DNA of 64,000 nt from Anaerolineae bacterium (GTDB lineage Bacteria; Chloroflexota; Anaerolineae; Anaerolineales; Villigracilaceae), in NCBI GenBank assembly GCA_021324435.1, contig JAJPIZ010000009.1, forward strand, positions 62,001-126,000, given 5' to 3'. Under the pieces are notes generated by a model, which had not been told where the DNA came from, did not search any database, and saw only the letters and a list, made by a program, of their open reading frames with translations. The translations under genes and the position numbers were made by a program. Shown piece after piece: positions 31,245 to 59,796 of this stretch (its first letter is position 1; the number at the start of each line of letters is the position of its first letter).

Positions 31245-31862
31245 ATGAAATTATTCTTCTCTCCTCCTTCCTCTGACGATCTCATTCGCCTGCTCAAAGC
31301 CTGGCGCTTCTGGCTGGTGAGCGCGTTGGTTGGCGCCGTCATCGGCGCGGCTGTTTACTATATCGCGCCGCCGCCCTATCGCGCCCGGGCCACCGTCAAC
31401 GTGGACTTTCACATCGAACAGGCCTGGCCCAAGGATACCGACCGCCAGCAATTCTACTTCCTCGAACGCGAGACACGAAAGCTGGAAGAGATCGCCTGGT
31501 CGGACGAAGTGCTGAACACCGCGGCGACACAGGCCGCAGACGATACTTTTACAGCCGACAGTGGAAAACTTCAACTGGGTCAGCCTGGCAACGGTGGCTG
31601 GCACTTTTACGCAGACGATCCGGACCCGAAGAAGGCCGCGACGTTTGCTTCTGCTTGGGCGCAGGCCTTCGCGGAAAAAGTGAAGGCAGATGTTGCCAAT
31701 CCGTCTAGCGGGTTGGAACAATACATCACCGCGGACGCTACACAGACTCAGAATCTCACCGCGCATCGCAGTGTGAGTTTGAGCATGTACCTCCTGGCAG
31801 GCTCGCTCATCTTTCTGGCTGTGAGCGCGTTCAGCATTTTATTTTTTGATCTCAGAAAATGA
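31245..31862 (+). CDS. Wzz-like chain-length determinant protein
   Basis: A 205-residue protein with a membrane segment near each end ('FWLVSALVGAVIGAAVYYI' and 'SMYLLAGSLIFLAVSAFSILF') and an extracytoplasmic domain between them that starts with the 'PPPYRARATVNV' stretch typical of Wzz/Wza-partner proteins. It is shorter than usual and lacks a kinase domain. It should set polymer length together with the Wzy-like protein, whose start overlaps its stop (ATGA). Confidence 0.8.
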   Translation: MKLFFSPPSSDDLIRLLKAWRFWLVSALVGAVIGAAVYYIAPPPYRARATVNVDFHIEQAWPKDTDRQQFYFLERETRKLEEIAWSDEVLNTAATQAADDTFTADSGKLQLGQPGNGGWHFYADDPDPKKAATFASAWAQAFAEKVKADVANPSSGLEQYITADATQTQNLTAHRSVSLSMYLLAGSLIFLAVSAFSILFFDLRK

Positions 31863-33346
31863 ATGCCGCATCCCGCCTCCTGAGTTTGGATAAAATCGTG
31901 CGCGTCCTGTGGGCCGTGGCTTTATTGTGTTTACCCGTCACCAGTTTTCGCTATTTCCCCGCGGGCGACGGCACGTACGTCCGGCCATTGGCGTTTTTTC
32001 CGCTGGTGTTGTTACTGCCCATCCTGCTGATTCAACTCCTACCCCCCTCTTTCTCTCCCCCCATTTTCGGAGGAAATGGGGGGAGACGGAGGGGGGGCCC
32101 GCGCGCGGGTTCGCTGACTCCGCTCACAGCATTTCTCTTCGCCGCTTTGGCGGCCAGCCTGATCGGGGTCCTGTTTGCGCCGGTGGCTTTGCGCGGCCAG
32201 CAAGTCTTTGGCCGCGTCTTGCGTGCCTGGGTCACAGTCTTCATGGGATTATGTTTTTTTATCGCCGCCATCTGGATGAACCGCGATGAAAATGATCTGC
32301 GCTTTACGATCAGATGGATGCTGGCCGGCTTTGCGCTCGACGTTCTGTGGAGCGGCTTGCAGGGCGCGACCTTTTACCTGCACATCTTTCCCAAGTCGCT
32401 GGTCACGCAGTGGCAACGCGCTTTTTCCTTGCGCGAGTTGGTTCGGACCAATCGGATTAGCGGAATGGCGTATGAGCCTTCATGGCTCGCGGGGCAAATC
32501 TCCACGATCTATCTTCCGTGGCTGTTCGCCTCTCTCTTGACCCGCGTGCGGGTGACGCGTTTCAAATGGCTGGAGCCAATGCTGTTGGTTTGCGCCGCGC
32601 TCCTTTTGCTTGCGACCTTTTCGCGCGGCGGCCTGCTGACCGTTGGCGCGACGGTCATCTTAACTCTCTTGCTTGCCGGGCGCGCCCAAATCGCCGCCGC
32701 GTGGAATTGGTTCCTCTCCGGCTTTCGCGGCCGCGGCTGGATTTGGCGCGTGGGAATCATCGGTTTAGTCATTGCAGTGATGGCAGGTGTAATGCTCTTC
32801 CTCGGACAAAAGGGATACATTTCCCGCTTGTTCAACACGCAAGCCGCCAACCTCACGGACTTCATCATCCAGAATTCGGCGGGCGCGCGCGCCGCGTATG
32901 TGTGGGGCGCAATGGGCGCGTATCAGGATCATCCGCTGACCGGCGTGGGACTCGGCGCGAGCGGGTTTTATATTTACAATCATCTGCCTGATTGGGCGTT
33001 GACGGTCGTACCGGAGATCGCGCGACAATTAAGCCCTGATACGGCGCTCTATCCCAATCCTAAAAACTTATTCGTCCGTCTGCTGGCTGAGACCGGCTTG
33101 ATCGGTTTCTTCTTGTTCGTTGCTTTTCTATTTTCGCTCCTGGCGGATGCGATTGCCGCGTTACAGCAGAAATCCGCGTTGTGGCAATATCTCGGCATCG
33201 CCTCGATTTTTACCTGGATCGCGCTGATTTTCTACAACATGACCCAGGACTCGTTTGCCATTCCAAATTTGTGGATCAATCTCGGTATCCTGGCTGGTAT
33301 GTCGGTGTTTACAGTACAATCCAATAAACCTGCCGAGGATGTTTGA
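31859..33346 (+). CDS. Wzy/O-antigen-ligase-family membrane protein with repeat-encoded insertion
   Basis: A 495-residue protein with about 11-12 membrane segments. The large extracytoplasmic loop region near 'GARAAYVWGAMGAYQDHPLTGVG' is the Wzy_C signature. 'NLFVRLLAETGLIGFFLFVAF' follows. In organisms without lipopolysaccharide such proteins usually polymerise repeat units. Residues 61-82 ('LPPSFSPPIFGGNGGRRRGG' and on) are encoded by a palindromic repeat inserted in frame between membrane segments. It is coupled to the Wzz-like gene before it and the sulfotransferase after it. Confidence 0.85.
   Translation: MNAASRLLSLDKIVRVLWAVALLCLPVTSFRYFPAGDGTYVRPLAFFPLVLLLPILLIQLLPPSFSPPIFGGNGGRRRGGPRAGSLTPLTAFLFAALAASLIGVLFAPVALRGQQVFGRVLRAWVTVFMGLCFFIAAIWMNRDENDLRFTIRWMLAGFALDVLWSGLQGATFYLHIFPKSLVTQWQRAFSLRELVRTNRISGMAYEPSWLAGQISTIYLPWLFASLLTRVRVTRFKWLEPMLLVCAALLLLATFSRGGLLTVGATVILTLLLAGRAQIAAAWNWFLSGFRGRGWIWRVGIIGLVIAVMAGVMLFLGQKGYISRLFNTQAANLTDFIIQNSAGARAAYVWGAMGAYQDHPLTGVGLGASGFYIYNHLPDWALTVVPEIARQLSPDTALYPNPKNLFVRLLAETGLIGFFLFVAFLFSLLADAIAALQQKSALWQYLGIASIFTWIALIFYNMTQDSFAIPNLWINLGILAGMSVFTVQSNKPAEDV
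32041..32096 (+). repeat. GC-rich coding palindrome, copy A (in wzy-like gene)
   Basis: Left arm 'cccccctctttctctccccc' and right arm 'ggggggagacggaggggg' close on CATTTTC/GAAAATG-like bases. Copies B (37022-37080) and C (38130-38187) share arms and centre. It is read as Pro/Ser- and Gly/Arg-rich peptide with no stop. Confidence 0.85.
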
Positions 33347-34074
33347 TGATCGTTCTTTCTGTTGGTATGCCGCGCGCCGGCTCCGGCTGGCACTACAATT
33401 TAATTCACGACTTGATGGAAACGACGGGGTGCGCCGATGCCCGCGACATTCGCGAGAAATTCCATCTGCAAAAAATCCTCACCGAAGTCAATTGCAACAT
33501 TGGAGTGCTGTCAGCGCGGCGCCTGGCTGCAGTGACCCTGCCCGCGCTGATGGGTAACACGTTTGTGATCAAAGCCCACGCCGGGCCAACACGCGCTTCG
33601 CGTCTGCTCTCGACTTTGGGCCTGCTTCGCGTCACTTACATTTACCGCGACCCGCGCGACGCCATGCTCTCCGCCTTTGATTACGGTCAGCGCGCCCTGA
33701 CCAAAGGCCGCCCAAACGCCTTTTCGCATCTTACAGATTTCGATGCCTCGCTGGCTTTTATCACGGACTACGTCCGCATCTGGGAAAAGTGGACGCGTGA
33801 AAAGAATGTGTTGATCGCCCGCTACGAAGATCTGTTGACGAACTACGATGCCGAGTGTGCCAGGCTGGTGGAATATCTCCGTTTAGACGGCGCCCGGCCC
33901 GAGGTCCGCGCAGTGATCGAACGCTATCGCCCCGAAAAAGCGGAAGCTCAGCAGGGCACGCATTTTTACAAGGGCAAAATCGGCCGCTTTCGCGATTCGT
34001 ATTCGTCGGGCCAGCAAAAAATCCTGGTTGAGCGATTCGGTGTGGTTTTGTCCAAAATGGGCTACGCGGTTTAG
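33346..34074 (+). CDS. Sulfotransferase-family protein
   Basis: A 242-residue P-loop protein. It starts 'IVLSVGMPRAGSGWHYNLIHDL', where GMPRAGSGW is the phosphosulfate-binding loop. 'VTYIYRDPRDAMLSAFDYGQRAL' gives the 3'-phosphate loop, and 'VLIARYEDLLTNYDAECARLVEYL' and 'GRFRDSYSSGQQ' complete the sulfotransferase pattern. The ATG at 33346 overlaps the previous stop; a TTG one codon earlier is the alternative. It ends the polysaccharide locus. It probably sulfates the exported glycan or its precursor. Confidence 0.82.
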   Translation: MIVLSVGMPRAGSGWHYNLIHDLMETTGCADARDIREKFHLQKILTEVNCNIGVLSARRLAAVTLPALMGNTFVIKAHAGPTRASRLLSTLGLLRVTYIYRDPRDAMLSAFDYGQRALTKGRPNAFSHLTDFDASLAFITDYVRIWEKWTREKNVLIARYEDLLTNYDAECARLVEYLRLDGARPEVRAVIERYRPEKAEAQQGTHFYKGKIGRFRDSYSSGQQKILVERFGVVLSKMGYAV

Positions 34075-34117
34075 ATCGCGCTTTGCAAAGGTGTAATCGT
34101 GTTGTAATGCGTTCATA

Positions 34118-34151
34118 TTGCTGTGGACGCATTATTTGTTATCATTAGCGT
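34118..34151 (+). promoter_or_regulatory. Leaderless promoter of the histidine kinase
   Basis: TTGCTG (34118-34123), 16-base spacer, TATCAT (34140-34145), then six bases to the ATG at 34152. No Shine-Dalgarno is present. Confidence 0.55.
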
Positions 34152-35903
34152 ATGCGGACTTTTGAAACTCCTTATGTCGCAGACTGGTTCGCCATTTCGT
34201 TACGGTGGGCGGTCATGTTGGGCCTGGTCGTTTCGTTGGCGCTGGGTGGAACGTTGAGCTTTGCGTTTGTCTGGCCGCTGGCTGTGATGATTTTTTGGAA
34301 CATGGGGATGACGATTCTGGCCAGCCTCAACACACGCATTACGTTTCATCGTCAAGTTAATCTGATCGCGGATGTTATTCTCAGCGGATTGTTTTTCTGG
34401 GTGCAGGGCGGGTTGGCCGGCCCGGCCTCCTGGGCCGCATTATTGCCCATCCTCACCGGCGCGGTCTATTATGATTTTCTGGGCGCCATCTCTGTGGCGG
34501 GCGCGTTTTCCATTATTTCGTTTGTATGGGTGCAGGCGTATGAGCCGCGCAGGGCTTCCCTGTCTTTATTTTGGATCGCGGGAACGTTGATGTTGGGCGC
34601 GTTGTTTGGTTTCATTGGCACGCAGTTGATGTCGCGGATGCGACTGCGGCGGCAGATGTGGCTGGATGCCGAGGAAAAAAGAGCGCGCGTCCAAAGCGAG
34701 CGATTGCGCGCCATCTATGAATTGACCTCCACCCTGACCGCGACTCTCTCCTACAAGCGCGTCCTCGATTCTGCCCTTGACCTGGGCTATGCCGCGCTCA
34801 ACCCGGACCAAAACGACACTGCGAGCGACCCCCTCGTCAGCGCGGTCTTTCTCTTTCGCGGCGGTCAATTGCGCGTTGGGTCGGCGCGACGTTTCACCAG
34901 CGCAGACCTTCGTCTTAACTTCGATGGCAACGAAGGCATTTTGAAAAAAGTCTTTGACGAGGGCGAGCCAACTTTTTCCAGAGACATTGGCTACGACCCC
35001 GAACTCGGACGCGTGATCGCGCTTCGCAACTGCACCTCAGCGTATTGCTTCCCACTGCGAAGCGGCTTCAACGTTTACGGCGCGATGGTCTTTGCGCATC
35101 CTGATTCCGACTATTTCACCAACGATCGCCGCAACCTGCTTGACATCATTGGCCGTCAGGCGGTGGTTGCGATTCAGAATGCGCGTCTGTATCAGGACCT
35201 CGTGGAGGAAAAAGAGCGCATGGTCGAGGTCCATGAGGAAGCGCGCAAGAAACTGGCGCGCGATTTGCATGACGGCCCGACTCAATCGGTGGCCGCCATG
35301 GCAATGCGCATCAACATTGCCCGCCGTATGGTCGAGAAGGATACCAAGACTGCGCTGGATGAACTGACCAAGATCGAAGAACTTGCACACCGCACGACCA
35401 AGGAAATCCGCCATATGCTGTTCACGTTGCGGCCCCTCATCCTCGAGTCGCAGGGGTTGAATGCCGCGCTCAAGTCCATGGCCGATAAGATGCGCGAGAC
35501 CTATAATCAGAATGTGGTTGTCAGTGTGGATGAGAACATTACGTCACAGATGGAAATGGGCAAGCAGGGCGTCATTTTTTACATTATCGAGGAAGCCGTC
35601 AACAACGCGCGCAAACACGCCAACGCCGCCAATATCTGGGTGCGATTCAAAATGTTCCAGCAGGGCGCGGCTTTGCTGGAGATCGAAGATGACGGCGTGG
35701 GTTTCGATGTGGACGCGGTCAACCAGGCCTATGATAAACGCTCCAGTTCCAGTCTCGGCATGGTCAATCTGCGCGAACGCACCGAACTGGTGAATGGTCT
35801 TCTCAATGTTCAATCTACAATCGGCAAGGGGACGAAGGTCTCGGTGTACATTCCACTCACCGAGGAAGCCGCGGATCGTCTGCATCACGCCAAACTGCGC
35901 TAG
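34152..35903 (+). CDS. NarL-type membrane sensor histidine kinase with GAF domain
   Basis: A 583-residue kinase. Residues 1-160 hold about five to six membrane segments, followed by a short coiled linker, a GAF-like domain (about 190-345, 'YCFPLRSGFNVYGAMVFAH'), a HisKA_3 helix with the phosphoacceptor His373 in 'LARDLHDGPTQS', and an HATPase_c domain with 'IIEEAVNNARKHANA', 'EIEDDGVGFD' and 'SLGMVNLRERTELVNG'. It would phosphorylate a NarL/FixJ-type regulator, but none lies nearby. The signal is unknown. The next gene starts nine bases after its stop. Confidence 0.9.
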   Translation: MRTFETPYVADWFAISLRWAVMLGLVVSLALGGTLSFAFVWPLAVMIFWNMGMTILASLNTRITFHRQVNLIADVILSGLFFWVQGGLAGPASWAALLPILTGAVYYDFLGAISVAGAFSIISFVWVQAYEPRRASLSLFWIAGTLMLGALFGFIGTQLMSRMRLRRQMWLDAEEKRARVQSERLRAIYELTSTLTATLSYKRVLDSALDLGYAALNPDQNDTASDPLVSAVFLFRGGQLRVGSARRFTSADLRLNFDGNEGILKKVFDEGEPTFSRDIGYDPELGRVIALRNCTSAYCFPLRSGFNVYGAMVFAHPDSDYFTNDRRNLLDIIGRQAVVAIQNARLYQDLVEEKERMVEVHEEARKKLARDLHDGPTQSVAAMAMRINIARRMVEKDTKTALDELTKIEELAHRTTKEIRHMLFTLRPLILESQGLNAALKSMADKMRETYNQNVVVSVDENITSQMEMGKQGVIFYIIEEAVNNARKHANAANIWVRFKMFQQGAALLEIEDDGVGFDVDAVNQAYDKRSSSSLGMVNLRERTELVNGLLNVQSTIGKGTKVSVYIPLTEEAADRLHHAKLR

Positions 35904-35912
35904 AATTTAATC
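35901..35912 (+). promoter_or_regulatory. Possible leaderless promoter of the hydrolase gene
   Basis: TAGAAT (35901-35906), which includes the kinase stop codon, ends six bases before the ATG at 35913. The gap is too short for a Shine-Dalgarno and none is seen. Co-transcription with the kinase is the alternative. Confidence 0.4.
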
Positions 35913-36689
35913 ATGCCCACTGCCGCTGGTTTGTATTATTTTGCCCATGAGGCGGAAAATTTTTCGCGTCCGGCTGTGATTCTGATCCACGGCGCGGCGG
36001 GGAATCATTTATATTGGCCGCCGCAAGTTCGCCGCTTGCATGATCAACGCATCTTCGCGGTGGACCTTCCGGGGCATGGCAAATCAGAGGGAGTCGGTCA
36101 TCACACGATTGACGATTACACGGATGAGATCATCGAATTCATGAAGGCCTTGAAATTAAACTCCGCCATTCTTGTGGGCCACTCAATGGGGAGCGCGGTC
36201 GCGCTCACAGCCGCGATCAAATTTCCGAAACGGGTGACCGGCCTCGGTCTCGTGGGAGGCGGGGCGCGGTTGCGCGTCGCGCCGGCGTTGTTGCAAGCCG
36301 CCTCAGAACCGTCCACATTTTTGGACGCGGTTCACATGGTCAATGAAAATTCGTACACAGCTCATTCCAGCGAACGTTTGAAGGAGTTGGGTGAGAAGCG
36401 AATGGCCGAGACGCGGCCAACGGTTCTTTACGGGGACTTTTTGGCGTGCGACGCGTTTAATATAACGGATCAACTCTCGAAGATTTCTGCGCCAACGCTG
36501 ATCGTGTGCGGCGCGGAAGACAGGATGACTCCGCTCAAGAATTCTGAATTTCTGCGCGACAACATCGCAGACTCAAAACTGGAGGTTGTGCCCAATGCCG
36601 GGCACATGGTGATGCTCGAACAACCGGAAAAGGTTGCAGCGATTCTGGCGGAGTTTTTCAACGGCATTCCATATCAGCCCGGAAGATAA
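35913..36689 (+). CDS. Alpha/beta hydrolase
   Basis: A 258-residue hydrolase. 'VILIHGAAGNHLYWPPQVRRL' gives the oxyanion-hole HG, the nucleophile elbow is 'LVGHSMGSAVAL' (Ser in GHSMG), the acid lies in 'IVCGAEDRMTPLKNSEFL', and the His in 'PNAGHMVMLEQPEKVAAIL'. All triad residues are present. The substrate cannot be inferred. It converges on rdgB with only 8 bases between stop codons. Confidence 0.9.
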   Translation: MPTAAGLYYFAHEAENFSRPAVILIHGAAGNHLYWPPQVRRLHDQRIFAVDLPGHGKSEGVGHHTIDDYTDEIIEFMKALKLNSAILVGHSMGSAVALTAAIKFPKRVTGLGLVGGGARLRVAPALLQAASEPSTFLDAVHMVNENSYTAHSSERLKELGEKRMAETRPTVLYGDFLACDAFNITDQLSKISAPTLIVCGAEDRMTPLKNSEFLRDNIADSKLEVVPNAGHMVMLEQPEKVAAILAEFFNGIPYQPGR

Positions 36690-36697
36690 TTTTCAAA

Positions 36698-37348
36698 CTA
36701 TCCAAACGATTTAAGAAGTCTCTCCAAAATTGGCTTCGCATTTGTGACCGCCCGGGCGCGATGGCTCAGGCGGTTCTTTTCATCCATGCCGAGTTCGGCC
36801 ATGGTGCGGCCCAACTCTGGAATCAAAAATATGGGGTCATATCCAAAGCCGCCCGTGCCCCGTTCTTCCGGGATAATCTCGCCGTCGCATTTTCCTTCAG
36901 CGCATTGAACATCCTGATTGGGCGCGGCAATTGCAATCGTGGCGCGGAAATGCGCGATCCACGGACGCGGCTTGCCCTTAAGGTTTTGTAAAAGATAAGC
37001 GCGGCGATCAGCGTCTGTAAGGCCCCCTCTTACTCCACCCACATTTTCAAAGAAAATGGGGGGAGACGGAGGAGGAGGGCTGTAACGCGCTGAATAAAGC
37101 CCCGGCGCGCCGTTCAAAGCATCCACCTCGAGACCCGAATCGTCGGCGAGGGAAACAAGTCCGCTGGTTTGAGCAAAAGCGACTGCTTTTTTTGTCGCGT
37201 TCTCGGCATAGGTTTTGCCATTCTCTTCAACTTTTAGATTCAAGTGAAGATCGGCAGGTGTGACCAGTTCCACTTGTAAATCATCGAGCAAGGCGCGGAT
37301 TTCTTCTATTTTTCCTTCGTTGTTTGTGGCAATCAGGAGTCTATTCAT
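36698..37348 (-). CDS. rdgB: dITP/XTP pyrophosphatase RdgB with repeat-encoded insertion
   Basis: A 216-residue HAM1/RdgB protein: 'LLIATNNEGKIEEIRALL' (substrate TNN), 'YAENATKKAVAFAQ', 'LADDSGLEVDALNGAPGLYSARYS', 'FGYDPIFLIPE', and 'KNRLSHRARA'. It hydrolyses deaminated purine nucleoside triphosphates to keep them out of DNA. Between 'YSARYS' and 'TDADRRAYLL' there is an insertion of about 18 residues (Pro-rich then Gly/Val-rich) that the family lacks; it is exactly the palindromic repeat B. The start at 37348 overlaps the queG stop. A longer frame reaching 37672 lies inside queG and was rejected. Confidence 0.9.
   Translation of the reverse strand: MNRLLIATNNEGKIEEIRALLDDLQVELVTPADLHLNLKVEENGKTYAENATKKAVAFAQTSGLVSLADDSGLEVDALNGAPGLYSARYSPPPPSPPIFFENVGGVRGGLTDADRRAYLLQNLKGKPRPWIAHFRATIAIAAPNQDVQCAEGKCDGEIIPEERGTGGFGYDPIFLIPELGRTMAELGMDEKNRLSHRARAVTNAKPILERLLKSFG
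37022..37080. repeat. GC-rich coding palindrome, copy B (in rdgB)
   Basis: Same arms and centre as copy A (32041-32096), read by rdgB from the opposite strand. The frame gives 'PPPPSPPIFFENVGG', which shares 'SPPIF' with copy A. Confidence 0.85.
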
Positions 37349-38427
37349 TGAGAACTTTTTTCGCGTTCTTCGATTTGCTTGATGGCCCACGCGGCGTGTT
37401 TGCGGATCATCGGCTCTGGATCTTGAAGCGCCTCTTTCAGAGCAGGAATATCTTTTGATGAACCTTTGTTCCCCAGCGCGACTGCCACGTTTCTCAAATA
37501 GTCGCGTCGTTTGGCGCGTTTGACCGGGCTGTTCTTGAATTTGCGATTGAAATCTTCGGACATGAGTTTGAGTTCCTGAATCAAATTTGGCTGTTGAAGA
37601 TTTTCGCGGGGGCTGAAAGCCGGGTCGCCATCCGGCGCGGCGAAACGGTTCCATGGGCAGACCATTTGACAAATATCACAACCAAAGACCCAGTCATCCA
37701 TCAAAGGACGAAGTTGCGGCGGAATATCATCCTTCAATTCGATCGTGAGATACGAGATGCAACGACCCGCGTCAATCGTCCGATTCCCGAGGATGCAGTC
37801 AGTCGGGCAGGCCTCGATACAGCGTGTGCAGGTCCCGCACTGATCGGTGGCGAACGATGGATCGGGCTCAAGTTCGAGATCGAGGAAGATTTCTGCAAGT
37901 AGAAAATAGGAACCGAGGCGTGGGTTGATCAGGCAGGTGTTTTTGCCGATCCAACCCAGCCCGGCGCGTTGGGCCAGATCCCGTTCGAGGATTGGACCTG
38001 TGTCTGTGTACCAGCGATTCGCAACTGGATGCCCGGCTTGGTCCTCGATGAATTTGACGAGGGTCTGCAATCGTTTTGGTAAAACGAGATGATAGTCATC
38101 GCCCCAGGCATACGCGGCGACGCGTCCGTTGCCCCCATCTTTCTCTCCCCCCATTTGCGCAGAAAATGAGGGGAGACGGAGGGGGGTCTTGTAAGGAATC
38201 GCCAGCACGAGGATGGATTTGCAGTTGGGCAGGACGAGTCGCGGGTCTGCACGGCGAAGGCGGGCGCGGTCATCCGTCAAATAATCCATGGAAGCATGCC
38301 GCCCCTGCGCGAGCCAGTCTTCAAAGACCGACAGGTGCGGGGGCGGGTCTGGAGTGGTGATGCCGGCCAGGATGAATCCCAACCGGCGTGCTTCGTTCTG
38401 AATTGCTTGTTTTAGATTGTCGCTCAC
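37345..38427 (-). CDS. queG: Epoxyqueuosine reductase QueG with repeat-encoded insertion
   Basis: A 360-residue cobalamin- and Fe-S-dependent enzyme for the last step of queuosine synthesis in tRNA. It has 'GRHASMDYLTDDRARLRRADPRL' in the N-terminal domain, 'ERDLAQRAGLGWIGKNTCLINPRLGSYFLLAEIF', the clusters 'CGTCTRCIEACPTDCI' and 'CDICQMVCPWN', and a C-terminal HEAT-like repeat. Residues 81-100 ('TPLRLPSFSAQMGGEKDGGN') lie between 'AIPYK' and 'GRVAAYAWGDDYH', where the family is short; they are encoded by palindromic repeat C. It is translationally coupled to rdgB. Confidence 0.92.
   Translation of the reverse strand: MSDNLKQAIQNEARRLGFILAGITTPDPPPHLSVFEDWLAQGRHASMDYLTDDRARLRRADPRLVLPNCKSILVLAIPYKTPLRLPSFSAQMGGEKDGGNGRVAAYAWGDDYHLVLPKRLQTLVKFIEDQAGHPVANRWYTDTGPILERDLAQRAGLGWIGKNTCLINPRLGSYFLLAEIFLDLELEPDPSFATDQCGTCTRCIEACPTDCILGNRTIDAGRCISYLTIELKDDIPPQLRPLMDDWVFGCDICQMVCPWNRFAAPDGDPAFSPRENLQQPNLIQELKLMSEDFNRKFKNSPVKRAKRRDYLRNVAVALGNKGSSKDIPALKEALQDPEPMIRKHAAWAIKQIEEREKSSQ
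38130..38187. repeat. GC-rich coding palindrome, copy C (in queG)
   Basis: Same element as copies A and B. Here queG reads it in a different frame ('TPLRLPSFSAQMGGEKDGG'), again without a stop codon. Confidence 0.85.
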
Positions 38428-58692: not shown

Positions 58693-58723
58693 TTGATTCT
58701 TAGTCCCACCGGCCTTTCGGCCA

Positions 58724-58760
58724 CCCTCCCCAAATTCCGCAATGCGGAATTTGGGGAGGG
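58724..58760. repeat. Perfect 37-base palindrome
   Basis: Arms CCCTCCCCAAATTCCGC and GCGGAATTTGGGGAGGG with a three-base loop. It sits between the terminator and the end of ilvE. A CGGCC/GGCCG hairpin directly precedes it. It looks like a dispersed repeat rather than a terminator, since no T-run follows. Confidence 0.75.
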
Positions 58761-58772
58761 GCGGGGTAGGGC

Positions 58773-59690
58773 CTACACTTCCACATTCCAGCTTTTGTAT
58801 TTGGGATTTCTGCCGCGCAACGCATCCTCGTAGAGATCGCGCAACTTGGCTGTGATCGGACCCATCACGCCGCGTCCGATGGGGCGGTGATCTACTTTGG
58901 TCACCGCGGTCACCTGCGCGGCGGTGCCGGTCATGAAGAACTCCTCGGCAATGGCGACCTCGGTGCGGTCAATCGAACGCTCGACCACCTGGAGCCCCAT
59001 GTCACTGCGCAGGATTTCCATCACCGACTTGCGCGTGATGCCTTCAAGAATATTATCCGTAACGGGCGGTGTGACTACGATTCCGTCGCGCACCATGAAT
59101 ATATTCATGGCTGAGCCTTCAGAGACGTGTCCGTTTTGATCGAGCACCAGCGCCTCGTCAAAGCCGGCGCGGTTGGCATCCGTCTTGATCAAAGCCGAGT
59201 TGGCATACGCGCCCGCTACCTTTCCGCGCGCGGGAATCATATTGTCATCAATGCGCCGCCACGAGGAAATGGTCACATGCGCATTGGTATCGTTCTTGAC
59301 GTATTTTTCATACGGCATCGTGAACAGACAGAATTCATCCTTGAGATCGTGCAATCGGACCCCGATGCCCATATCGGCCTTGTAAAATGTGGGGCGCATG
59401 TAAACGTCCTGCTGATAGTGATCGGTGCGAAGCAATTCCAGCGTCAATTCGATCAAACTCTCTTCATCGAAACTGGTGGACATGGCCATCATCCGCGCCG
59501 AATGTAGAAGGCGGTGATAATGATCCCATGGACGAAAAACGAAGAGACGTTTCTTCTCTTCGTTCCAGTAGGCTCGTATGCCACCGAATACGGCTGTGCC
59601 ATACAAGAAGCCGTGTGTGGCTATGTTGATTTTCGCGTCCGCAAGCGGGACAATTTTTCCCTCAAAGTATGCATGCTTCGAGAGATCCAC
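58773..59690 (-). CDS. ilvE: Branched-chain amino-acid aminotransferase
   Basis: A 305-residue class IV aminotransferase: 'YFEGKIVPLADAKINIATHGFLYGTAVFGGIRAYW', the PLP lysine in 'GAYANSALIKTDANRAGFDEAL', 'EGSAMNIFMVRDGIVVTPPV' and 'EEFFMTGTAAQVTAVTKVD'. It transaminates leucine, isoleucine and valine. The GTG at 59690 was chosen because a GGAGG lies eight bases upstream and the family begins here; the ATG at 59732 has no such site. It is divergent from the ArsR gene. Confidence 0.93.
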   Translation of the reverse strand: MDLSKHAYFEGKIVPLADAKINIATHGFLYGTAVFGGIRAYWNEEKKRLFVFRPWDHYHRLLHSARMMAMSTSFDEESLIELTLELLRTDHYQQDVYMRPTFYKADMGIGVRLHDLKDEFCLFTMPYEKYVKNDTNAHVTISSWRRIDDNMIPARGKVAGAYANSALIKTDANRAGFDEALVLDQNGHVSEGSAMNIFMVRDGIVVTPPVTDNILEGITRKSVMEILRSDMGLQVVERSIDRTEVAIAEEFFMTGTAAQVTAVTKVDHRPIGRGVMGPITAKLRDLYEDALRGRNPKYKSWNVEV

Positions 59691-59796
59691 AAGGGCACCT
59701 CCAAGAAAGGATTGGGACCAGCTCTTACGCACGAATTATAACCGATTCACTCCGCATCATTCCGGGCTTGGAACGGTCACCGTTTCGCGACCACCC

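Follow-up and report, generated by a model that had tools for sequence, protein, structure and literature searches.

How can one palindromic repeat lie in frame within three different genes of a single 6.1-kb interval and leave each reading frame open? The question is raised by the window, a 64-kb stretch of DNA (G000:C22:62001-126000) from the source genome G000 of an uncultured Anaerolineales bacterium, a genome that spans 3.11 Mb and is 97% complete. Copy 1 (32041-32098) lies in a wzy-like gene (31859-33346, + strand) for a Wzy_C O-antigen ligase-like membrane protein of 495 aa and is read on the + strand as PPSFSPPIFGGNGGRRRGG. Copy 2 (37021-37078) lies in rdgB (36698-37348, - strand), the gene for XTP/dITP diphosphatase (RdgB/Ham1), where it falls between the SARY motif and DADRR and is read on the - strand as PPPSPPIFFENVGGVRGG; copy 3 (38131-38188) lies in queG (37345-38427, - strand), the gene for epoxyqueuosine reductase, and is read on the - strand as TPLRLPSFSAQMGGEKDGG in a variable loop before the AYAWGDDYH motif. 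All three copies are given here on the + strand, and the peptides predicted across the insert in the rdgB and queG products would include PPPSPPIFFENVGG and TPLRLPSF...GGEKDGG. The preliminary description had recognized one palindrome in three genes, and both identity and folding place the copies in the same family: copies 2 and 3 are 82% and 91% identical to copy 1, and the hairpins of copies 1, 2 and 3 fold far more strongly than shuffled sequences (z = -4.3, -3.8 and -3.0). Inspection confirmed the opposite strand of the rdgB and queG copies relative to the wzy-like gene, the shared reading register of the rdgB and wzy-like copies, the other register of the queG copy, and the lack of any stop codon in the frame used in all three. 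Had the copies been placed at random, three within 6.1 kb would be expected with a chance of about 1%; rdgB and queG are adjacent in relatives too, and both are recurrent target loops.

The repeat unit, about 57 bp (55-60) long, forms an imperfect hairpin with the consensus GCCCCCCTC-TTTCTCT-CCCCCC-ATTTTC-NNN-GAAAAT-GGGGGG-AGACG-GAGGGGGGC. It folds into an outer and an inner stem separated by an internal loop, and since this loop is asymmetric the repeat has a direction, with a TTTCTCT arm and a CGTCT arm. The AT-rich core occurs in two compensated versions, ATTTTC/GAAAAT or AAATTC/GAATTT, and in a long form of about 66 bp a small side hairpin, TCCCTTCGGGA, replaces TTTCTCT. The ends of the repeat are CCCCCC...GGGGGG, with CGTC present only inside one arm, and few stops occur in any of the six frames. 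A search of Rfam returned only sub-threshold animal microRNA hairpins, which were taken as chance matches.

Copies across the source genome were counted by BLAST, pattern and covariance-model searches together with inspection of each place. Far from being confined to the window, the repeat was found in 19 copies of the window type in G000, and a backwards control pattern gave no match. Each of the 19 is in frame and stop-free, across both orientations and several frames, within an ORF of 284-827 aa. The hosts named by Pfam/NCBIfam are LipB, a PMT-like protein, a MoxR AAA ATPase (at its C-terminus), the C-terminal part of DnaE, ThyX, TlyA, a CCA/poly(A) polymerase, a PALP dehydratase, a transglycosylase, MeaB, HemW, an ABC ATPase, a UvrD helicase, QueG, RdgB and Wzy_C; three of the 19 hosts had no family match in Pfam/NCBIfam. 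Eleven of the 19 copies share one of the six frames (p = 6e-5) and give (A/T)PLRLPPFSxKMGGEKEGG; two of these eleven, in LipB and ABC, were assigned by homology because another long ORF overlaps the host. The remainder are read in four other ways. Palindromes of related build with other outer stems behave differently, with only one of 15 in a gene (a dihydroorotase) and the others intergenic, against 19 of 19 for the window type (Fisher p = 1e-8); these exact counts depend on types separated by eye from the outer-stem sequence and on 'in gene' calls made from ORFs and family matches. One such relative in the window (58708-58776, + strand), of similar build with a different outer stem, provides an internal control type; it has a CCCTCCCC core and a GGGGTAGGG outer stem and adjoins a gene at 58773-59732. 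A further palindrome family of the form CCCTCACCCCTGC..CCCAATTTTGGG..GGGGGTGAGGG is also found in frame in long ORFs, with SPLRPSPKIGRGDGGE-like peptides, at G000:C16:5238, C11:26035, C7:11664 and C19:42071 (L119, L116, L106 and L121).

In G000, rdgB, queG and lipB each exist as a single full-length copy, and each carries the insert. Because the inserted genes are the only full-length copies, RdgB, QueG and LipB are presumably functional despite it. The loop that the preliminary description attributed to the insert was recovered in an AlphaFold2 model of RdgB built from a 42-sequence alignment (mean pLDDT 93), in which the insert lies between helix 82-87 and helix 111-122 with a pLDDT of 59-69, lowest at residues 103-105. 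RdgB is thus predicted to fold confidently around a disordered insert. Solved relatives of RdgB and QueG have gaps or short variable loops at the insert position.

The rdgB site was followed through the taxonomic family of the source organism, in which 95 of 100 genomes have the gene, using a panel of the 30 best loci of the family. The stretch from SARY to DRR spans 9-11 aa at empty sites (SPKPGATDA) but reaches 18-26 aa in seven of the genomes, so that the earlier statement that the protein family normally has no insertion here holds for RdgB, in nearly all relatives; it does not hold for QueG, whose loop naturally varies from 13 to 36 aa. The seven inserts among the 30 loci all begin at the same codon and occur in both orientations and in different frames. 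A tree of 41 species built without the insert gave seven changes for the seven occupied species, of which three are forced by strongly supported branches alone, as some forks are weakly supported. Each occupied species has empty close relatives: G044 beside G059, G021 beside G056, G095 beside G077, G112 beside G071, and G000 beside G002 and G004. Within one genus, G000 and G001 carry the rdgB element in opposite orientation and with different centres. In species-level comparison with empty sites, the insert replaces part of the native loop and no target-site duplication is visible. In G044, G112, G021 and G011 the element has been trimmed at its ends in frame; it appears that old inserts decay without loss of frame, which is what tolerated loops should show. 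Hairpin scores did not separate rdgB sites (5 of 30) from control segments (15 of 137), since some of the controls cover a strong hairpin close to the end of the gene, and direct sequence comparison was used instead; the cut-off was reached by five of the seven occupied sites and by none of the 23 empty ones. Two loci whose rdgB matches were split, in G104 and G082, were found to be empty at this site. The RdgB genes at L281 and L285 are longer than usual, at 627 and 687 bases compared with about 585.

Other loops are also occupied repeatedly. The LipB loop after HGPGQLVGYPLxPL reads GKxNTDNKLP when short; in longer cases it holds the window repeat (G000), palindromes of the CCCCTCTCCC...GGGAGAGGGG types, paired AGACCTGTCAGGTCT palindromes, two other hairpins and more, and CCCTGAGCGAAGTCGAAGGG is among the unrelated palindromes in this loop. 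By folding z-score, used because a perfect-stem count misses long imperfect hairpins, 14 of the 30 sites in LipB form strong hairpins, compared with 6 of 120 control segments from these genes; the figures for QueG are 8 of 29 and 4 of 173. The paired AGACCTGTCAGGTCT palindromes form a separate repeat family, read in frame in the LipB loop as RPDRS/RPVRS repeats, at lipB loci L234, L238-L240, L246, L252 and L253 (G018, G082, G104, G099, G053, G112 and G051). A glycosyltransferase site, IASPVSYITG, is occupied in six genomes, in one of them by an unrelated palindrome, and elements at the same place were also seen in an ABC ATPase (three), at a cytochrome TGCAACHTP (three), in SecA (two), in UvrD (two) and in others. 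By inspection, elements at the same place of the same gene differ in frame and orientation between relatives.

With the covariance model, strong copies of the same consensus were detected in several genera of the source family, and most of the 40 top copies from 15 other genomes lie inside long ORFs. In a sample of 301 genomes of the phylum, matches at E 1e-5 were confined to the source family, in a scan whose stricter filters and few scored candidates per genome could miss weak copies outside it. G039, from another family of the order, reached E 8e-9, but its palindromes have a different outer stem. An exact-pattern scan of viral contigs and a search of plasmids gave no repeat match, and in no distant clade were the same residues found without palindromic DNA.

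How the repeat moves was approached through known transposases. No normal RAYT was found in G000, and neither of its only two Y1_Tnp domains has a repeat beside it. Y1/RAYT transposases are not supported as the mover, as Y1 numbers and copy numbers were uncorrelated over 41 genomes (rho 0.05). One Y1_Tnp (TnpA-like) domain, L163 (G000:C32:124531-124887), is the C-terminus of a receiver-like protein of 568 aa adjoining polA; most genomes of the family have similarly sized ORFs that contain the domain, and it looks like a domesticated transposase domain. The repeat itself had been called a coding-compatible selfish or domesticated element. Coding compatibility stands, with 19 of 19 copies open and in frame; domestication does not fit, for the same site in different species holds different sequences, orientations and frames and the peptide is not conserved, and no mobilizing enzyme was found that would make it selfish in the sense of self-mobilization.

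From these observations a model is proposed, which we consider probable, of a family of protein-coding palindromic repeats retained passively wherever an additional open peptide is tolerated in a flexible loop. The unit would spread by copying; in-frame insertions in a flexible surface loop would survive and be translated as an extra Pro/Gly-rich loop of 15-20 residues, while other insertions would be removed by selection. Because few loops of conserved enzymes would tolerate an insert, the same loop would be colonized independently across species, also by unrelated palindromes. Translation, enzyme activity, selection as the filter and the mode of movement are the parts of this model that we infer. 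The bias in frame use would follow if the six peptides differ in how well they are tolerated, and the preferred reading fits a peptide-tolerance filter; directional insertion would also produce it. Two observations sit less easily with tolerance: the left junctions in RdgB agree to within one codon in 7 of 7 cases, sharper than tolerance alone predicts, and no clean insertion event was seen, as native loop bases are partly replaced.

An alternative is targeted insertion, in which the copying machinery would prefer certain DNA sites, such as a few Cs and then a run of Gs (the native rdgB loop TCCCCCAAACCCGGCGC has this form), and selection would remove only frame-breakers. The single starting codon of all seven rdgB inserts, the native empty rdgB sites, which often read CCC-AAA-CCC-GG and resemble the ends of the element, and the more than random clustering of three copies in 6 kb agree with it; however, unrelated palindromes (the AGACCTGTCAGGTCT pairs and CCCTGAGCGAAGTCGAAGGG) share the LipB loop, the empty LipB site has no C/G runs, and junctions at other host sites have no obvious motif in common, which makes targeting unlikely as the main cause. 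Still less probable is that the repeat was inserted once per site in the ancestor of the family and was then inverted, converted or lost. A palindrome can be inverted in place, the consensus is common to several genera, and strongly supported branches force only the three changes; yet the nearest relatives of each occupied rdgB are empty, even within a genus, seven changes fall on the tree, and under a single origin SPKPGATDA would have had to be restored exactly by many losses. A service to the host, by which the hairpin or peptide would regulate translation or mediate protein interaction, could draw on the strong mRNA hairpins and the one preferred frame, but the hosts are unrelated, presence is patchy, and what occupies one site varies in orientation, frame, sequence and palindrome family, so that such a function is very improbable. 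The long hairpin within conserved enzymes might also recall an element skipped or spliced out, through translational bypassing or RNA or protein splicing; in an element that is skipped, stops and frame shifts would do no harm, whereas 19 of 19 copies are open and in frame, and we find this hardly credible. A bolder reading, also unlikely, regards the surface loops of housekeeping enzymes as docking sites at which several unrelated palindrome families insert, get replaced and reinsert through a site-preferring mechanism that involves no known transposase. If it were true, proteins would keep acquiring new loop sequence from non-coding repeats.

The comparison with Rickettsia palindromic elements (RPEs) offered in the preliminary description is apt as an analogy, given the many copies, unrelated hosts, both orientations, several frames, constant openness, position in a loop and empty sites in close relatives. 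RPEs, as related from Ogata 2000 and 2002 in PMC10969869 and PMC3733652, are palindromic repeats that sit in frame within many unrelated genes and share the reading frame of the host. Like them and the protein-coding palindromes of Wolbachia, the Chloroflexota element is a repeated palindrome, in frame and stop-free in unrelated ORFs, with empty orthologues in relatives. It is set apart by description, with about 57 bp against about 150 bp for RPEs, a different base composition, and copies of the window type that in G000 were found only in genes. The CGTC tag at one end of RPE-4 and RPE-6 (PMC3733652) is absent from the ends of the Chloroflexota repeat.

Intragenic GTAG/CGTC REPs of Opitutus, Thauera, Rickettsia and others are likewise short palindromes, mostly intergenic with some in ORFs (PMC3733652). 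The Chloroflexota repeat lacks a GTAG or CGTC terminal tag, its coding copies predominate, and same-site recurrence involves several genes, many species and unrelated palindromes. Since CGTC REPs have been reported without a dedicated transposase, the missing RAYT counts only against the GTAG kind. In one case, the recB of two Xanthomonas species, different REPs lie at about the same site (PMC3733652), which foreshadows the recurrence seen here. MITEs whose ORFs become fused to host genes (PMC10969869) are also small, non-autonomous elements with inverted repeats and in-frame fusions; for the repeat described here no transposase-tied terminal inverted repeats were seen and, in species-level comparison, no target-site duplication was visible.

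No report of coding palindromes in Anaerolineales was found in the literature searched, most subscription journals lying outside its coverage, and what is added is the repeated occupation of the same protein loops by several palindrome families. In-frame genic palindromes were previously described as a peculiarity of Rickettsiales, together with scattered REP cases, and their appearance in Chloroflexota is independent. Their dense occurrence across species provides natural replicates: seven species have an insert at one and the same RdgB codon, and a single LipB loop holds several unrelated palindromes. With such replicates two questions become testable: does a site recur because the protein tolerates inserts there or because insertion is targeted, and do proteins steadily gain new loops from repeat DNA?
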